Of a DNA stretch of 64,000 bases, positions 5,911-53,986 are shown piece after piece. A program made the position numbers and the translations under genes. The notes under the pieces are model-generated. The model did not search any database. It saw only the letters and a list, made by a program, of their open reading frames with translations, and was not told the origin of the DNA. Source of the stretch: an uncultured Oscillibacter sp. (lineage in GTDB: Bacteria; Bacillota; Clostridia; Oscillospirales; Oscillospiraceae); contig CAJOHW010000003.1 of assembly GCA_905234565.1 (NCBI GenBank), positions 1-64,000 on the forward strand, written 5' to 3'. How positions within the stretch are numbered: the first letter of the stretch is position 1; each line of letters starts with the position of its first letter.

Positions 5911-8460
5911 ATGAAAACGCTGAAACTGGCAGACGGCCTCTGGTGGAACGGGATCCTGGACCCGGATCTCCGGGTGTTTGACATCGTCATGCGGACTGAG
6001 TTTGGAACCACCTATAACTCCTACGTCTTAAAAGGGAGCGAAAAAACCGCCCTCTTTGAGACCAACAAGCTGAAATTCTGGGACGCGTACCAGGACGCCC
6101 TCAGCGCCGTCACAGATATCCGGAGCATTGACTATATCGTCATGAACCACACGGAACCGGATCACGCCGGAACCGTGGAGAAAGTGCTGGAATTGAATCC
6201 CCGGGCCGTGGTGGTGGGCACCTCCACCGCCATCAGCTTCCTGAAGGAGATCGTCAACCACGATTTCAACAGCCGCGCCGTGAAAGACGGGGATACCCTG
6301 TCCCTGGGGGAAAAGACCCTGCGGTTCATGATCCTCCCCCAGCTCCACTGGCCTGATACCATGTATACCTATGTGGAGGAGGACGGGATTCTCTTCACCT
6401 GCGATTCTTTTGGCAGCCATTACAGCCATGAGGGAATCCTCCGCTCCACCGTTACGGATACGGAGGGCTATCTCCGGGCCACAAAGTACTACTTTGATAA
6501 CATCATCGGGCCCTTCCGGATCCCCTTCATGAACGACGCCCTGGACCGGATCAAAGACCTGAACCTCCGCATGATCTGCACCGGCCACGGCCCCGTACAC
6601 GACAGCCATATCGACGAGATTCTGGCCCTGTACCGGCAGTGGTGCGCGGTGCCGCCGAGGCGGGAGAAGAAGCTGGTGGTGATCCCCTATGTGAACGCCT
6701 ACGGCTATACCGGCCAGCTGGCGGAGCGCATCGGCGCGGGGATTCTGGACGCGGCAGGCGGTCAGGCGGAAGTGCGCTTCCACGACATGGTGACTTCCGA
6801 CGCGGGGGAAGTGGCGGCGGAACTGGCCGCGTCGGACGCCTTCCTGCTGGGGACGCCCACCATCCTTGGCGAGGCCCTGGCCCCCATTTGGAATCTGACA
6901 TTGTCCCTGTTCCCGCCGGTACACGGAGGGAAACTGGCCAGCGCCTTTGGCAGTTACGGCTGGAGCGGCGAGGGAGTACCCCACATCATTGAGCGTCTCC
7001 GCCAGCTTCGCATGATCGTGCCGGATCAGGGCTTCCGGGTACGGCTGAAACCCAGTGAGACCCAGCTGCTGGACGCCTATGAGTACGGCTATGGCTTCGG
7101 ACGCAGGCTGATGAAGGGAAAGCCGGAACATCAGATCTTAGGAAAGAGCAAGGGAACCCGCTCCCTGGTGAAATGTCTGGTGTGCGGCGCGATTTTCGAC
7201 TCCTCCATGGACACCTGCCCCGTGTGCGGCGTGGGAAGCGATAAGTTTGTCCCTGTGGAGGATACCTCCACCAGTTTCCGCAAGGATACGGAGGAGCGGT
7301 TCGTGATTCTCGGCGGCGGACCGGGGGCCCATTTCGCGGCGGAGGCCATCCGTGCCCGGAACGAAACGGCAAAGATCCAAATCCTTACGGCGGAGAGCTG
7401 CCTGCCCTACAACCGGCCCATGCTGACGAAAGTCCTCTTGCAGGATCTCTCCGGAAACCGTCTGGCCATTGAAAACCCGGCCTGGTACCAGGAGCGGAAC
7501 ATCGAGCTGGTGTTTGGCACCACCGTGCAGTCCATCGACACGGCGGCAAAACAGGTGCTGTGCGACAAGGGAACCTTTGCCTATGACAAGCTGATTTACG
7601 CCCTGGGAGCCCGGTGCTTTGTGGTACCCATTCCCGGCGCGGACAAGCCCCACGTGGTCTCCGTGCGCTCCATCGCCGACTGTGAAAAGGTCCAGGCCAT
7701 CGCCAGGAACGCCAAACGGGCCGTTGTCATCGGCGGCGGGGTCATGGGGCTGGAAAGCGGCTGGGATCTGAAGAAAGGCGGGCTGGACGTGACGGTGCTG
7801 GAAACCGCCCCGGGCCTCCTGCCCCGGCAGCTGGACGACGCCGCCTCCGCCATGCTTCAGGCGGCCTGTGAAAAAGCGGGGGTCCATGTGGTGACGGGGG
7901 CGAAAATCGCGGAAATCGCCGACGACGCCGTGATTCTCGCGGACGGTACCCGATATCCCGCGGAACTGGTCATTATGTCCACGGGAATGCGGGGCAACAT
8001 CGCCGTGGGACAGGCGGCGGGCCTAAAGACAAACATTCTGATTCAAATCGATGCCCACTGCGCCACCAGCGCCCCGGACGTGTGGGCCTGCGGCGACTGC
8101 ACAGAGTTCCACGGACAGCCCCATGGGTTCTGGGCCCAGGCAGCGGAGACAGGCCGTGTGGCGGGAGCCAACGCGGCGGGGGAGGACATCACCTTCCAGC
8201 CCATGGGCAGCGCCATGTCGATTCAGGCCATGGATACCGCCATCTTTGCCCTGGGAACCAACGGCAAAGCCGGTCCCAGCGAACTGGAACCCAATCTCCG
8301 CACGGTGGAGATCCGGGACGAGCAGCGGGGGAATTATGAGAAGTACTACTTCCGCAAGAGCCGTCTGGCAGGCGTCATTCTCATTGGCGACACGTCGAAA
8401 ATGGCGGCCATGACAAAGGCGCTGGAAGAGGAAGCGTCCTTCAGCGATATCTTCCAATAA
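5911..8460 (+). CDS. flavodiiron protein / rubredoxin / NAD(P)H:rubredoxin oxidoreductase fusion
   Basis: MNHTEPDHAGT (metallo-beta-lactamase-like diiron domain), flavodoxin domain, CLVCGAIFD...CPVCGVGSD rubredoxin, then FAD/NAD domain VILGGGPGAHFAAEAIRA and VVIGGGVMGLESG; ATG 5911 preceded by aaggagg. Confidence 0.92.
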   Translation: MKTLKLADGLWWNGILDPDLRVFDIVMRTEFGTTYNSYVLKGSEKTALFETNKLKFWDAYQDALSAVTDIRSIDYIVMNHTEPDHAGTVEKVLELNPRAVVVGTSTAISFLKEIVNHDFNSRAVKDGDTLSLGEKTLRFMILPQLHWPDTMYTYVEEDGILFTCDSFGSHYSHEGILRSTVTDTEGYLRATKYYFDNIIGPFRIPFMNDALDRIKDLNLRMICTGHGPVHDSHIDEILALYRQWCAVPPRREKKLVVIPYVNAYGYTGQLAERIGAGILDAAGGQAEVRFHDMVTSDAGEVAAELAASDAFLLGTPTILGEALAPIWNLTLSLFPPVHGGKLASAFGSYGWSGEGVPHIIERLRQLRMIVPDQGFRVRLKPSETQLLDAYEYGYGFGRRLMKGKPEHQILGKSKGTRSLVKCLVCGAIFDSSMDTCPVCGVGSDKFVPVEDTSTSFRKDTEERFVILGGGPGAHFAAEAIRARNETAKIQILTAESCLPYNRPMLTKVLLQDLSGNRLAIENPAWYQERNIELVFGTTVQSIDTAAKQVLCDKGTFAYDKLIYALGARCFVVPIPGADKPHVVSVRSIADCEKVQAIARNAKRAVVIGGGVMGLESGWDLKKGGLDVTVLETAPGLLPRQLDDAASAMLQAACEKAGVHVVTGAKIAEIADDAVILADGTRYPAELVIMSTGMRGNIAVGQAAGLKTNILIQIDAHCATSAPDVWACGDCTEFHGQPHGFWAQAAETGRVAGANAAGEDITFQPMGSAMSIQAMDTAIFALGTNGKAGPSELEPNLRTVEIRDEQRGNYEKYYFRKSRLAGVILIGDTSKMAAMTKALEEEASFSDIFQ

Positions 8461-49589: not shown

Positions 49590-49618
49590 TTGCATTTTGG
49601 CGCTCGACCTGATATACT
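49590..49618 (+). promoter_or_regulatory. predicted promoter of the SecB-like cassette
   Basis: TTGCAT-N17-TATACT. Confidence 0.55.
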
Positions 49619-49663
49619 GGTTGGCAACGGCGGATCAAACAGACAGAGAAGGAGCGTTTCCCT

Positions 49664-50164
49664 ATGGCGGACAAAGATCTTTCTGCGAAACCTCTTTCGA
49701 TCTATGCCCTGTACAAGCAAGCCCAGGGAGAGAGAAAAAAGGAACTCAGGCTGCTGATGACAAAATTCAGCCCGCAGGAACTTCCGTTTCAAGAAATCCC
49801 AGTGTTCCGCATCTGCAAGAGCGGAACCGTGGACAGGGACGCGTTTCTCACCACATATGAGGAAACCCGCCAGGGACTACGTCCACGCCCACGGAAGGAT
49901 AACAGGTGGAGCGAGGATGTCCTAAATCCAAGTACCTACTCCACCTCCTGTAATTTGACCTATGAATCCGCAGAGCGGGTACTGGATGTCCTTACCCGAC
50001 ACCACCCTCCCGCTGTGATTGCCAAAGGGACCGCCTCCTCCGCCCTTGGCCCAGTGCAAAAGACTGTGGACCGGACCCATAATCCCAAGGATGAAAATCA
50101 TGTTGACTGGTGGCTGGATGGGTGTATCAACGACCCCAGCGCGTCTTTTGATGTCGTATCATGA
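49664..50164 (+). CDS. hypothetical protein (166 aa), first gene of SecB-like cassette
   Basis: RBS gagaaggag before ATG; no family recognised. Confidence 0.7.
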   Translation: MADKDLSAKPLSIYALYKQAQGERKKELRLLMTKFSPQELPFQEIPVFRICKSGTVDRDAFLTTYEETRQGLRPRPRKDNRWSEDVLNPSTYSTSCNLTYESAERVLDVLTRHHPPAVIAKGTASSALGPVQKTVDRTHNPKDENHVDWWLDGCINDPSASFDVVS

Positions 50165-50180
50165 GAGCGCGCAGAGGTTC

Positions 50181-50260
50181 TATACTCGTGAACGATGAGA
50201 TTTACCGTCAGTTGCCGTGCTGGTGACTTGAAATGTGGCAACTCTTAAAGAGCGCGAGTA
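50181..50260 (+). repeat. dispersed ~80-bp element, copy F
   Basis: tatactcgtgaacgatgagatttaccgtcagttgccgtgctggtgacttgaaatgtggcaactcttaaagagcgcgagta. Confidence 0.88.
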
Positions 50261-50276
50261 GAAAAAGGAAAGAGAG

Positions 50277-51017
50277 GTGGCCAGCGTGTCTGCGTATTTT
50301 GAAAAGATACTCAGCATTGGTGACTTAAATTTGGAATATGTATTCTATGAATATGAAGAACCGGTTTTGTTCGTCTGCACAGACGCGCTGGAAAACAGGT
50401 ATCTGTGTTCCTGCTGCCGCCTGGGCGAAAACTGGATTGTAGGAAGAATCACCGACAGCGCTCTGGTGGATGTGATAGACGGGACGGAGACGCTGGAAGG
50501 CGCGTTCCGCAAGAGTTCCTTTGTGTTCTTTCTTGTGTGGGACGGCGAGCGGCTGGACTGCCATTTAGAGATTCCGGAGGACGCCTACCCCAGGGCCGGA
50601 GCAGCGCTGAAATTACTGGGACAGGAAAAAGCGGCGGTTGCAGACTATCGGGCCAAACTGGTCCCCACACAGTCGGATTCCGTGGTACGGGTCCGTCTGG
50701 ATCCTGCACTTTATTCCCCTTTGCTGTACCATCAGGATTTTGGGGACGCATTCAGCGTTTCGCGGGAAATGCCTTTATCTGAATCTGTCACAAGCGCAAA
50801 ATGGGACAGCGCAGTTTACGCACCCCTGACGCTGCAAATCCAAAGTTGTATTCCCGGAGTTTCTGAAGAAAAACGTATGCCGCATTCCCCCTCGCTGCGC
50901 CAGCAGAACTACGGGAACGCATTCAACATCTCGCAGGAAGTACCTCTGAAAGTCTTACTGCTTGAAAGTGAAGAAAGCCCGTACGCAGGGCTTGAGGAGT
51001 TTCCCATAGCGGCATAG
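50277..51017 (+). CDS. hypothetical protein (second gene of cassette) with duplicated C-terminal motif
   Basis: YFEKILSIGDLNLEYVFYEYEEPVLFVCTDALENRYLCSCCRLGENWIVGRITDSALVDVIDG...; alternative GTG start at 50286 fits the RBS better. Confidence 0.7.
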   Translation: MASVSAYFEKILSIGDLNLEYVFYEYEEPVLFVCTDALENRYLCSCCRLGENWIVGRITDSALVDVIDGTETLEGAFRKSSFVFFLVWDGERLDCHLEIPEDAYPRAGAALKLLGQEKAAVADYRAKLVPTQSDSVVRVRLDPALYSPLLYHQDFGDAFSVSREMPLSESVTSAKWDSAVYAPLTLQIQSCIPGVSEEKRMPHSPSLRQQNYGNAFNISQEVPLKVLLLESEESPYAGLEEFPIAA

Positions 51018-51027
51018 GAGATGGCAT

Positions 51028-51465
51028 ATGGCACAGAGTAAATTCCAATTTCAAAATCCGGTGCTTACAAAGCTTGATTACGCAATCAACGAGGATTATA
51101 ATTCTGAATCCCCGGATCCGAAGGATTTGCCGCTTTCCATGCAGGTACAGGTCAGCAGGCAGGAAGAGGAATCTGCCGCCTATGTGCGGCTCATCGTCTC
51201 TGTGGCAGAACAGAATCCGGCATATCCCTTCTTCCTCTCCGCTTCCATGGTTGCCCGCTTTCAGTGGAACGAGGATCTGCCGCCTAAGCTGGTAGATACT
51301 CTTTTGCGGCAGAACGCTCCTTCCCTTCTTTTGAGCTATCTGCGGCCTTATATTGCCCAAATTACCGGCGCGGGTCCAGGCAATCCGATTCATATCCCAT
51401 TTATGGATTTTACCCATAAAGACACCGCCCCGGAGCAAGTTGCCGCCCCGGAACAGGGCGTTTGA
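51028..51465 (+). CDS. SecB-like chaperone family protein
   Basis: FQFQNPVLTKLDYAINEDY N-terminal strand and C-terminal LLSYLRPYIAQITGAGPGNPIHIPFMDF resemble the SecB fold; RBS aggag upstream. Confidence 0.65.
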   Translation: MAQSKFQFQNPVLTKLDYAINEDYNSESPDPKDLPLSMQVQVSRQEEESAAYVRLIVSVAEQNPAYPFFLSASMVARFQWNEDLPPKLVDTLLRQNAPSLLLSYLRPYIAQITGAGPGNPIHIPFMDFTHKDTAPEQVAAPEQGV

Positions 51466-51491
51466 ACCCCCAAAAAAGTCATGCTTTTACC

Positions 51492-51534
51492 GCGTTTCCC
51501 CTCTCCAAACCGGAGAGGGGAACGCTTTTTCTCG
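51492..51534 (+). terminator. intrinsic terminator at cassette end
   Basis: GCGTTTCCCCTCTCC-aaac-CGGAGAGGGGAACGCtttttctcg. Confidence 0.85.
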
Positions 51535-51543
51535 TATCAATTC

Positions 51544-52989
51544 TTACTTATGCTGTGCCGCCAGCCAGTCCCAGAGCAGGACGCCGTTTTCCTCGCACTC
51601 TCCGTTGAAGAAGTACAGCCAGGACCAGTGGCCCATATACTCGTAGGGGGTGCCATCCTCGTTCTTGTACAGGCCGGAGGTGTCCACTACGTTGGGGAAC
51701 ACGCTGGTGTGGACATTGGCCCCAATGGCCCGGAGGCGGTCCACCGTGGGGATCTCAAAGGTTTCCGGCACCACGGTGTCGTCATTGGCGGCCCAGATGA
51801 ACCAGATGGGCAGGTCCCGGATGCCTTGGAGCTGTTCATCGGTGATGCCGCTGTCCCGGTAGGCCTCGCAGATGGGATAGGCCGCCGCGAAGAAGTCCGG
51901 ATAGGTCAGAACCATGTCCATGGTCATAAAGCCGCCGTTGGAGCAGCCGCCGATGTAGATCCGGTCCTCGTCCACGCCGGGATGGGTGTCAATAAAACTC
52001 CGGATCAGTTCCATAAGCGTGGCGTTGTACACGGAGGACACGCCGGGGTTGTCCTGCCAGTCCCCGTTTTCATTGTAGGTCAGCCAGAAGTCCGGGGTCT
52101 GGGGGACCAGGACATAGGCCCCGCCCATGACGGACTGAAAGGCGTCCCCAAAGAGGGCGGTGACTTTATTGCCCAGCAGAGGGATGGTGGGGTCCTCCCC
52201 GCCCTCCCCGGCACCGTGGATCCAGATCACCAGGGGATGGAGGGAATCCGGCTCCACCATTGGGGCGTAGTAGGCATAGCGCAGGGTGCGGCCGTCGGAG
52301 CCGGCGAAGGCGTCATAGAGGTTCACCTGTTCCAGCTGGGGCATGGTGAACTGGGGGAGCAGGCTGGGACGGCCCGTCTCCCAGGCGTCATAGTGGACTT
52401 TCAGATCCAGATCCGGGGCGATTTCCAGAGCCTCTACGGGGGTCTCCCCCTCCGCCGCTTTCAACGTGCTGTCCTCCGTCAGGGTCACGGCCAGCTGATA
52501 GGGATCGCATACCGTGTTGTGCCAGGTCAGCAGGTCAAAGCAGTAGGGGTTGCCGGAATCGGGATCGCAGGCCAGTTCCAACGCCACGGCGCTGCCGGAC
52601 ACGGCACCCTCCACCTTGGCCCCGGTCTCGTCGCACACATAGGCGTCCGCCACAGTGCGCTGAGCGGTGACGGTGGTGTGGAGGCCGGGATCTACGCTCT
52701 CATCCCCGCCGGCCCACGCGCCATAGGCGGCATAGTCAAAGGACTCCTTGGTCTCAAAGACCCGGAAGCTCTCCGGCGTCACGGAGTCCGCCAGCACCTC
52801 CCGGTCCAGAAGCAGAATGGTTTTCGTCACGCCGGGGCCCCAGTCGAAGCCCTCCAGCACCACCTGCTGCTGTCCAATCAGGACCATGGGGGCGTTCTCA
52901 TCCTCCGGCGGGGTTTCGGCGGGGGAGCCGCCGCAGGCCGTCAGCAGCGCAAGAGACAGGACCATGATCACAAACCATGCGTTTTTCAT
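51544..52989 (-). CDS. secreted lipoprotein alpha/beta-hydrolase (PHB-depolymerase/prolyl-oligopeptidase type esterase)
   Basis: lipobox LLTACGG; GxSxG-like GGCSNGGFMTM; WIHGAGEGG. Confidence 0.85.
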   Translation of the reverse strand: MKNAWFVIMVLSLALLTACGGSPAETPPEDENAPMVLIGQQQVVLEGFDWGPGVTKTILLLDREVLADSVTPESFRVFETKESFDYAAYGAWAGGDESVDPGLHTTVTAQRTVADAYVCDETGAKVEGAVSGSAVALELACDPDSGNPYCFDLLTWHNTVCDPYQLAVTLTEDSTLKAAEGETPVEALEIAPDLDLKVHYDAWETGRPSLLPQFTMPQLEQVNLYDAFAGSDGRTLRYAYYAPMVEPDSLHPLVIWIHGAGEGGEDPTIPLLGNKVTALFGDAFQSVMGGAYVLVPQTPDFWLTYNENGDWQDNPGVSSVYNATLMELIRSFIDTHPGVDEDRIYIGGCSNGGFMTMDMVLTYPDFFAAAYPICEAYRDSGITDEQLQGIRDLPIWFIWAANDDTVVPETFEIPTVDRLRAIGANVHTSVFPNVVDTSGLYKNEDGTPYEYMGHWSWLYFFNGECEENGVLLWDWLAAQHK

Positions 52990-53221
52990 CGGGAATCCTC
53001 CTTTTTCTTTGGCGTTCTATCCCGGGCAGCCGGATTCTCCCAGACCGCCGGGACTTCTCTCATTATATCCGTTTCCGGCGTCTGTGGCAAGGGGCGTAAA
53101 AAATTTCTGATGTTTTTTCTCCCGCCGCCCTTGCGGGAACCGGGCGGGGGTGGTATACTCAAGGGAAATCCCTTTCTGCCCTGCCGGGAAGGGCGGGTAA
53201 AAATCGTGAGGAGGAACCGCC

Positions 53222-53986
53222 ATGAACCCCATGAGCCCCTATCTGCAAGCCCCCTATACCACCCTGGCGGGGTATCTGAACGCCCAGTTTACCATGGCTA
53301 TGACGCTGGAACTGCTGGCCCGGTTTGTGGTGGCGGGCCTTTGCGGCGTGTGCATCGGCATTGAGCGCATGAAGCGGCTGAAGGAAGTGGGAATGCGGAC
53401 CCATGTGGTGGTGTGCTGCACCGCCGCGCTGATGATGGTAGTGTCCAAGTACGGTTTTGCGGACCTCACCAGCCTCACCGGTACGGCGTTCAACGGCACC
53501 CGGGGGGCGGACCCCGCCCGGATTGCCGCCCAGGTGGTCAGCGGCGTGGGCTTCTTAGGGGCCGGGACCATTTTCAAGGGGGGCAGCAGCATCAAGGGCC
53601 TGACCACGGCGGCAGGCGTGTGGGCCACGGCGGGCATCGGCCTGGCCATTGGCTCCGGGATGTACATTCTGGGCATCGCCTCCACCGCCATCCTGATTCT
53701 CATCCAGACCATCCTCCACCGGTACAGCTTAGGGGCCCCCGTCCTCACCACCCACCAGCTGAACTTCTCTATCCAGGCGGATAAGGACTTCCAGAGGGAG
53801 TTCTATGACTATTTGGAGGCCCGGAACGTCCAGGCCATTGCCAGCGAGGTCACCTATACGGAGGACGGCATCGTCACCTACCAGCTCCTCTTGAAAATGC
53901 CCCACGGCACCATCCAGGACCTGGACGACTTCCTCCACGCCCACGGACAGGTCCGCACCGTGAGCTATTCCAACATTACGGAATGA
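53222..53986 (+). CDS. MgtC/SapB family membrane protein
   Basis: GIERMKRLKEVGMRTHVVVCCTAALMMVVS; GVGFLGAGTIFKGGSSIKGLTTAAGVWATAGIGLAIGSG. Confidence 0.93.
   Translation: MNPMSPYLQAPYTTLAGYLNAQFTMAMTLELLARFVVAGLCGVCIGIERMKRLKEVGMRTHVVVCCTAALMMVVSKYGFADLTSLTGTAFNGTRGADPARIAAQVVSGVGFLGAGTIFKGGSSIKGLTTAAGVWATAGIGLAIGSGMYILGIASTAILILIQTILHRYSLGAPVLTTHQLNFSIQADKDFQREFYDYLEARNVQAIASEVTYTEDGIVTYQLLLKMPHGTIQDLDDFLHAHGQVRTVSYSNITE

Follow-up and report, generated by a model that had tools for sequence, protein, structure and literature searches.

A SecB-type chaperone gene beside a PD-T4-10-type gene pair: a probable toxin–antitoxin–chaperone operon in an uncultured Oscillibacter

The three-gene cassette at 49664-51465 of the window, by which we mean the whole 64,000-nucleotide stretch of DNA analyzed here, is very probably a toxin–antitoxin–chaperone (TAC)-type module, as judged from its sequence. 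Taken as a whole, the cassette is best explained, with good though not overwhelming probability, as an acquired toxin–antitoxin–chaperone operon, in which a PD-T4-10-type pair is followed by a SecB-type chaperone and acts by the mechanism proposed below. What the sequence itself shows is an operon found repeatedly, with a SecB fold in its third product, PD-T4-10 homologues as genes 1 and 2, and an Ala-Ala tail on gene 2; from these we infer the mechanism. An earlier note on this DNA had suggested a module of the TAC-like, defense, or chaperone-addiction kind, a reading that is supported by the SecB identity of the third gene and by the co-occurrence of the three genes.

All three ORFs lie on the forward strand with a terminator 3' of them, and the three consecutive same-strand genes of the earlier note are present as ORFs of 166, 246, and 145 aa. 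Gene 1 (49664..50164, 166 aa) encodes a putative toxin of the HxDWW family. The ORF of gene 2, which encodes a putative chaperone-dependent antitoxin, opens at GTG 50277 (246 aa, to 51017), and GTG 50286 gives a protein of 243 aa starting with MSAYF. The latter start (50286..51017) is preferred, since the homologues start with MS or MN and AGAGAGG is located 5' of 50286. The gene 2 protein is divided into an N-terminal DUF6575 domain (residues ~1-125) and a C-terminal tail (~129-246). Gene 3 (51028..51465, 145 aa) encodes the SecB-like protein. Each of the three genes has a Shine-Dalgarno-like sequence shortly 5' of it, and genes 1 and 2 are separated by a 112-bp spacer containing a copy of a repeat described later. 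The strong terminator claimed previously is found on the same strand as an 11-bp stem (51496-51522) followed by a T-rich tract (to 51530). The claim of one promoter (TTGCAT-N17-TATACT, 49590..49618, forward strand) holds for its hexamers, which can be read directly at 49590-49595 and 49613-49618; they match the consensus at 8 of 12 bases, fall below the promoter-scan threshold, and are unlisted by the scanner. This putative promoter is weak, and its serving the whole cassette as a single promoter is plausible but unproven. An Rfam match to RNase P at 51161-51240 (22.5 bits against a cut-off of 100) was taken as a chance match.

The third protein had been described as resembling SecB, and both profile matches (PADLOC, Pfam, and PDB) and the predicted fold bear this out. 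The best match of gene 3 among curated defense profiles is PADLOC PD-T4-9_C, that is CmdC, the chaperone of CmdTAC, with an E-value of 1.7e-8 over residues 1-130, as for a CmdC-type SecB. The Pfam SecB model is matched at 3.8e-4, below the Pfam cut-off, and phrog_21664, an unnamed phage family in PHROGs, at 4e-10. A PDB profile search with eight gene 3 relatives gave SecB as the only match. The AlphaFold2 model (pLDDT 79.6), for which six sequences were used, shows four long strands together with one long helix, and all its Foldseek matches with E ≤ 1e-5 are SecB; E. coli SecB, H. influenzae SecB, and M. tuberculosis Rv1957 (a SecB-TA chaperone; 5mtw, with an antitoxin peptide bound) are matched at E-values of ~1e-6 to 1e-5 and TM scores of 0.58-0.71. 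Relatives of gene 3 are found in just 4 of 201 same-family genomes, its own genome counted; therefore, gene 3 is not a housekeeping gene. The profile and model evidence identifies gene 3 as a TAC-type chaperone with the SecB fold. Though Pfam places gene 3 in SecB, as would suit an ordinary export SecB with genes 1 and 2 as unrelated neighbors or its clients, this explanation is highly improbable, considering that gene 3 is nearer to the PD-T4-9_C model than to Pfam SecB, that its relatives are so rare in the family, and that the same two genes lie 5' of SecB in 5/5 operons.

These five operons, in which the three genes keep the same order while their proteins have diverged, are the window cassette and four further contexts: two IMG/VR contigs (L016 and L012/L013), a MAG contig labeled Bacteroides with phage-like neighbor genes (L021), and a same-class genome (L076). 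Co-occurrence in other genomes, which had been proposed as a check, is thus observed. Identities to the window proteins across the other operons are 26-41% for gene 1, 27-39% for gene 2, and 33-54% for SecB. BLASTP aligns gene 1 with its L012 counterpart at 34% identity over 110 aa and gene 2 with its L012 counterpart at 39% over 80 aa; the identity of gene 2 to its L016 counterpart is 46%. L012/L013 were found via an alignment of SecB relatives, and alignments built from L012/L013 led to L016, L021, and L076. The family of genes 1 and 2 was reached only through SecB-derived alignments. As single-sequence queries, genes 1 and 2 have no match in Pfam, NCBIfam, PADLOC (no model being matched directly by either), or PHROGs, and no relatives were detected by tblastn of plasmids and phages, by single-sequence search of viral contigs, or in 297 genomes of the order. 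Gene 1 likewise has no match in the contigs of 85,462 species' genomes, and PDB profile searches with genes 1 and 2 gave only matches with E > 0.3. The previous statement that the first two proteins match no family is accordingly right for single-sequence searches; it does not stand once homologues are used, by which both genes are connected to the PD-T4-10 pair.

PD-T4-10 is a two-gene anti-phage toxin–antitoxin system of E. coli, composed of protein A and a DUF6575 protein B (Vassallo et al. 2022, PMC9519451). The link of window genes 1 and 2 to it runs through homologues and profile comparison. When the five gene 1 proteins of the TAC-type operons are compared with seven PD-T4-10_A-type proteins by hhalign, the probability is 97.6% and the E-value, for a single comparison, is 3.3e-12. 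R49, S95, G129, T134, H146, and W150 are invariant in 10/10 sequences across the gene 1 and PD-T4-10A families. By this profile-profile comparison and these common invariants, gene 1 is assigned as a remote homologue of PD-T4-10A. For gene 2, the L012 homologue matches Pfam DUF6575 at 5.8e-4 (below the cut-off) and PADLOC PD-T4-10_B at 8.2e-8, and hhalign of gene 2 with DUF6575/PD-T4-10B gives 95.9% and a single-comparison E-value of 5.5e-9, with alignment restricted to the N-terminal 115 columns. On these alignments, the N-terminus of gene 2 is a DUF6575 domain, as found in PD-T4-10B, an anti-phage protein. Gene 2 does not correspond to a full-length PD-T4-10B, its length being 243-246 aa against 398-430 aa and the C-terminal region remaining unaligned. 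Gene 1 and gene 2 each find a counterpart in the PD-T4-10 pair, and the gene order is also kept, which gives independent support for the homology.

The DUF6575 proteins of other lineages, plasmids, and E. coli prophages each have a 130-150-aa protein upstream, and 4/4 of those tested (L019, L020, L079, and L080) match PD-T4-10_A. The pairs of the E. coli prophages overlap by 4 bp and match both PD-T4-10 models; they (L079 2064-3790 and L080 2027-3738) adjoin lysis genes. A Rahnella query was matched in 11 of 5426 E. coli genomes. No PD-T4-10_A family member was detected in 250 genomes of the phylum, in a search where the positive control also gave no match. The C-terminal regions of the DUF6575 proteins at L019 823-2061 and L020 1474-2706 match PADLOC PDC-M63B models, and this region is therefore common to another candidate defense system.

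The invariant R, S, T, and H residues suggest that gene 1 encodes a toxic enzyme. The AlphaFold model of gene 1 (pLDDT 41) is too poor for a fold search; therefore, only conservation points to an active site. Assignment as an ADP-ribosyltransferase of the R-S-E or H-Y-E type was backed by no tool and was dropped. Gene 1 and its homologues match no PD-T4-9_A model, while the toxins of L007 and L011, described later, do.

The C-terminal tail of gene 2 should be noted. It replaces the C-terminal region of PD-T4-10B in all five operons, varies among them, and cannot be aligned between the distant ones. In the window it ends with Ala-Ala and the stop codon (FPIAA*, 51009..51017, forward strand), resembling a degron. 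The terminal Ala-Ala is present in gene 2 of 5/5 operons with SecB and in 0/8 DUF6575 proteins without SecB, though few systems were counted. CmdA and other TAC antitoxins end with LAA, a ClpXP signal (PMC11618068), and chaperone addiction domains vary between systems (PMC5105189). Within the window tail, a 22-residue repeat is encoded twice on the forward strand, YSPLLYHQDFGDAFSVSREMPL at 50709..50774 and HSPSLRQQNYGNAFNISQEVPL at 50880..50945, with a score reached by 0/5000 shuffles. The addiction domain of M. tuberculosis HigA1 also contains a second motif resembling a SecB-binding one (PMC6377645); the 22-residue repeat is a possible chaperone-binding motif. By its sequence and by analogy to these systems, the tail appears to be a chaperone addiction domain.

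Composition and genomic setting bear on the origin of the cassette. Its low G+C content had been pointed out, and the contrast is clear: 52.1% against 61.8% for the window, with exactly 26/60 at 51061-51120. Of all 1.8-kb stretches in the 64 kb, this one has the least G+C; two of 622 segments of equal size are as low, both overlapping it. GC3 is 0.55-0.59 in the cassette genes against 0.83-0.85 in rimM, the esterase gene, and mgtC. The flanking genes are rimM (PF01782) and an EstA-like esterase gene, as named before. In two same-genus genomes (L033 and L041), rimM and mgtC are adjacent with a gap of ~150-180 bp, whereas the distance here is 3.7 kb, holding the cassette and the esterase gene; therefore, the corresponding gap is an empty site in those genomes. 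DNA matches within the three genes were absent from 30 sampled same-genus genomes. An acquired operon is the simplest reading. The esterase gene itself (51544-53222), which separates the cassette from mgtC, is likewise absent from the gap in the two genomes, so that the gap may be a site of repeated insertion.

The spacer between genes 1 and 2, on which the earlier note was silent, contains a copy of a genome-wide dispersed repeat of ~82 bp (50181..50268, forward strand, with the ends TATACTCG and CGAGTAGA). The genome has ~40 or more copies, some in tandem, with 78-90% identity to this copy, and a second one is located at 523-613 of the window. In the consensus, TATACTCGTGAACGATAAGATTTGCCATTCGTTGCCGTGCCAGTGACCTAAAATGTGGCAAATCTTAAAGAGCGCGAGTATA, the ends form an inverted repeat, and AAGATTTGCCA and TGGCAAATCTT make up an internal pair. 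Among 30 same-genus genomes, nothing matched the repeat at E ≤ 0.001. Judging from these features, it appears to be a REP- or MITE-like element specific to this lineage. In the homologous operons it is not present, and genes 1 and 2 overlap by 8 bp (L012, L021, and L076) or lie 9 bp apart (L016), indicating that the window copy has gained the repeat. As RNA, the spacer is not unusually stable (z -0.77), and no compensatory pairs were found in the repeat family.

This setting might also be taken to indicate a prophage or mobile-element locus for maintenance or addiction that plays no part in defense, the window copy being a relic between rimM and the esterase gene. Two relatives in IMG/VR viral contigs, the phage-like neighbors in L021, the gap empty in two same-genus genomes, the low GC3, and the repeat inserted between genes 1 and 2 agree with such a locus. 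However, all three frames are open and accompanied by ribosome-binding sites and a terminator, so the cassette is not obviously decayed. Defense genes are common on prophages, so the location is compatible with defense, and PD-T4-10 and CmdTAC, the nearest characterized relatives of both halves, defend against phage. We give the maintenance locus about one chance in four. By analogy to these relatives, an anti-phage role of the cassette is somewhat favored.

The mechanism that we propose for the TAC module is as follows. Gene 1 would be a toxic enzyme with a putative R/S/T/H site, and the DUF6575 domain of gene 2 would bind and silence it. The tail would make gene 2 unstable unless it is held by the SecB tetramer. 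Once SecB is occupied by a phage protein, gene 2 would fall to Clp proteases, and gene 1 thus freed would stop the cell from supporting the phage. The release by a phage product acting on the chaperone is modeled on CmdTAC, which is released by the T4 capsid protein (PMC11618068).

The toxin is placed at gene 1 rather than gene 2 with moderate confidence on three arguments from the sequences: the addiction-like tail is on gene 2; the polar invariants are in gene 1, whereas the residues conserved in the DUF6575 domain are limited to G, L, F, W, and P; and L081 has a DUF6575 protein of 142 aa standing by itself, as an orphan antitoxin could. They do not settle the polarity, because in E. coli PD-T4-10 protein B is reported to be toxic and required for defense, and A is neutralizing and not deletable (PMC9519451). 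Since genes 1 and 2 are both homologous to this pair, the polarity could be reversed, with gene 1 as the antitoxin and gene 2 as the toxin; SecB would then hold an aggregation-prone toxin or the whole complex, or deliver the toxin for degradation. We consider this arrangement unlikely, though the published polarity speaks for it. Gene 2 is without the C-terminal region of PD-T4-10B and has the Ala-Ala tail, an antitoxin hallmark. The other TAC loci described here carry the Ala-Ala or Ala end on the gene adjoining SecB, not on the enzyme. The catalytic-looking invariants in gene 1 and the lone DUF6575 domain in L081 also argue against reversal. The L081 protein (7051-7479; L077/L081) has no relative of gene 1 or SecB within 16 kb and is located in an apparent integrated element with ORFs resembling a cytosine methyltransferase and an integrase nearby; it could be an orphan antitoxin or an anti-defense protein.

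With gene 1 as the preferred toxin, the cassette may tentatively be viewed as a natural chimera, a DUF6575/HxxWW anti-phage pair under chaperone addiction. The HxxWW protein would be an uncharacterized toxic enzyme with the R/S/T/H site and DUF6575 its inhibitor, and the C-terminal region of PD-T4-10B would be a phage sensor, replaced here by the SecB-bound tail. If so, the published PD-T4-10 polarity needs re-reading. Chaperone addiction can be grafted onto unrelated antitoxins in the laboratory (PMC5105189), and the cassette looks like the same graft made by evolution on an anti-phage pair. It also gives a hint of where DUF6575 might have its antitoxin function and offers a route to deciding which PD-T4-10 partner is the toxin.

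Relatives of the window SecB are also found with other TA-like pairs upstream. Operons of a GNAT gene, a small-protein gene, and a SecB gene (L002 1-1209, L003 1510-2942, and L008 2011-3414; in two same-family genomes and viral contigs) are, from their sequences, apparent TAC modules with a GNAT toxin. CmdTAC-like operons with a CmdT-like ADP-ribosyltransferase are located on Lactobacillus gasseri plasmid p1 (L007 2980-4420) and a viral contig (L011 2097-3426), their toxins matching PD-T4-9_A at ~2e-6, and L004 has a HigBA-like pair. The antitoxins of these loci end with SDAA (L008), QLAA (L011), or a single Ala (L002, L003, and L007), and the HigA-like protein of L004 has neither end. In a handful of loci from Bacillota and viral contigs, the toxins partnered with related SecB-TA chaperones are of no fewer than four types: GNAT, ART, HigB-like, and HxxWW. 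The GNAT operons share the architecture of the cassette, with SecB proteins 36-42% identical to that of the window, and differ in their acetyltransferase toxin gene and unrelated antitoxin.

The cassette ties together two defense systems of one screen, PD-T4-9 and PD-T4-10. It shares with PD-T4-10 the A-B gene order, the R, S, G, T, and HxxWW residues of A in gene 1, and the DUF6575 N-terminus of B in gene 2. It differs in gene 2, where the Ala-Ala tail stands in place of the ~250 C-terminal residues of B, in the spacer with the repeat where A and B overlap in PD-T4-10, and in its third gene for SecB, PD-T4-10 being a two-gene system without a chaperone; the toxin/antitoxin polarity may also be reversed relative to PD-T4-10. 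CmdTAC/PD-T4-9 (PMC11618068) has the same T-A-C order, a homologous SecB-like chaperone, and a middle protein whose variable C-terminal tail ends in AA, but the middle protein of the cassette is of the DUF6575 type, not the CmdA type. TAC systems have been described with HigBA, HicAB, and MqsRA pairs (PMC5105189) and with the CmdTA pair, and PMC9519451 is the only paper found in the open-licence literature that names PD-T4-10 or DUF6575; we found no earlier description of a PD-T4-10-type pair within a TAC system. In common with the classical TAC systems (M. tuberculosis HigBA-SecB, MqsRAC, and HicAB-SecB; PMC5105189), the cassette has a SecB-like chaperone gene in the operon, following a gene pair that is conserved beside it in five operons and is homologous to the validated TA pair PD-T4-10. 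The partner adjoining SecB, the presumed antitoxin gene 2, has at its C-terminus a variable extension that its homologues without a chaperone do not have, and the Foldseek match of gene 3 to Rv1957 (5mtw) is a further likeness. Unlike in the classical systems, the pair is not HigBA, MqsRA, or HicAB, and gene 2, having no Pfam match, has no recognized DNA-binding domain.
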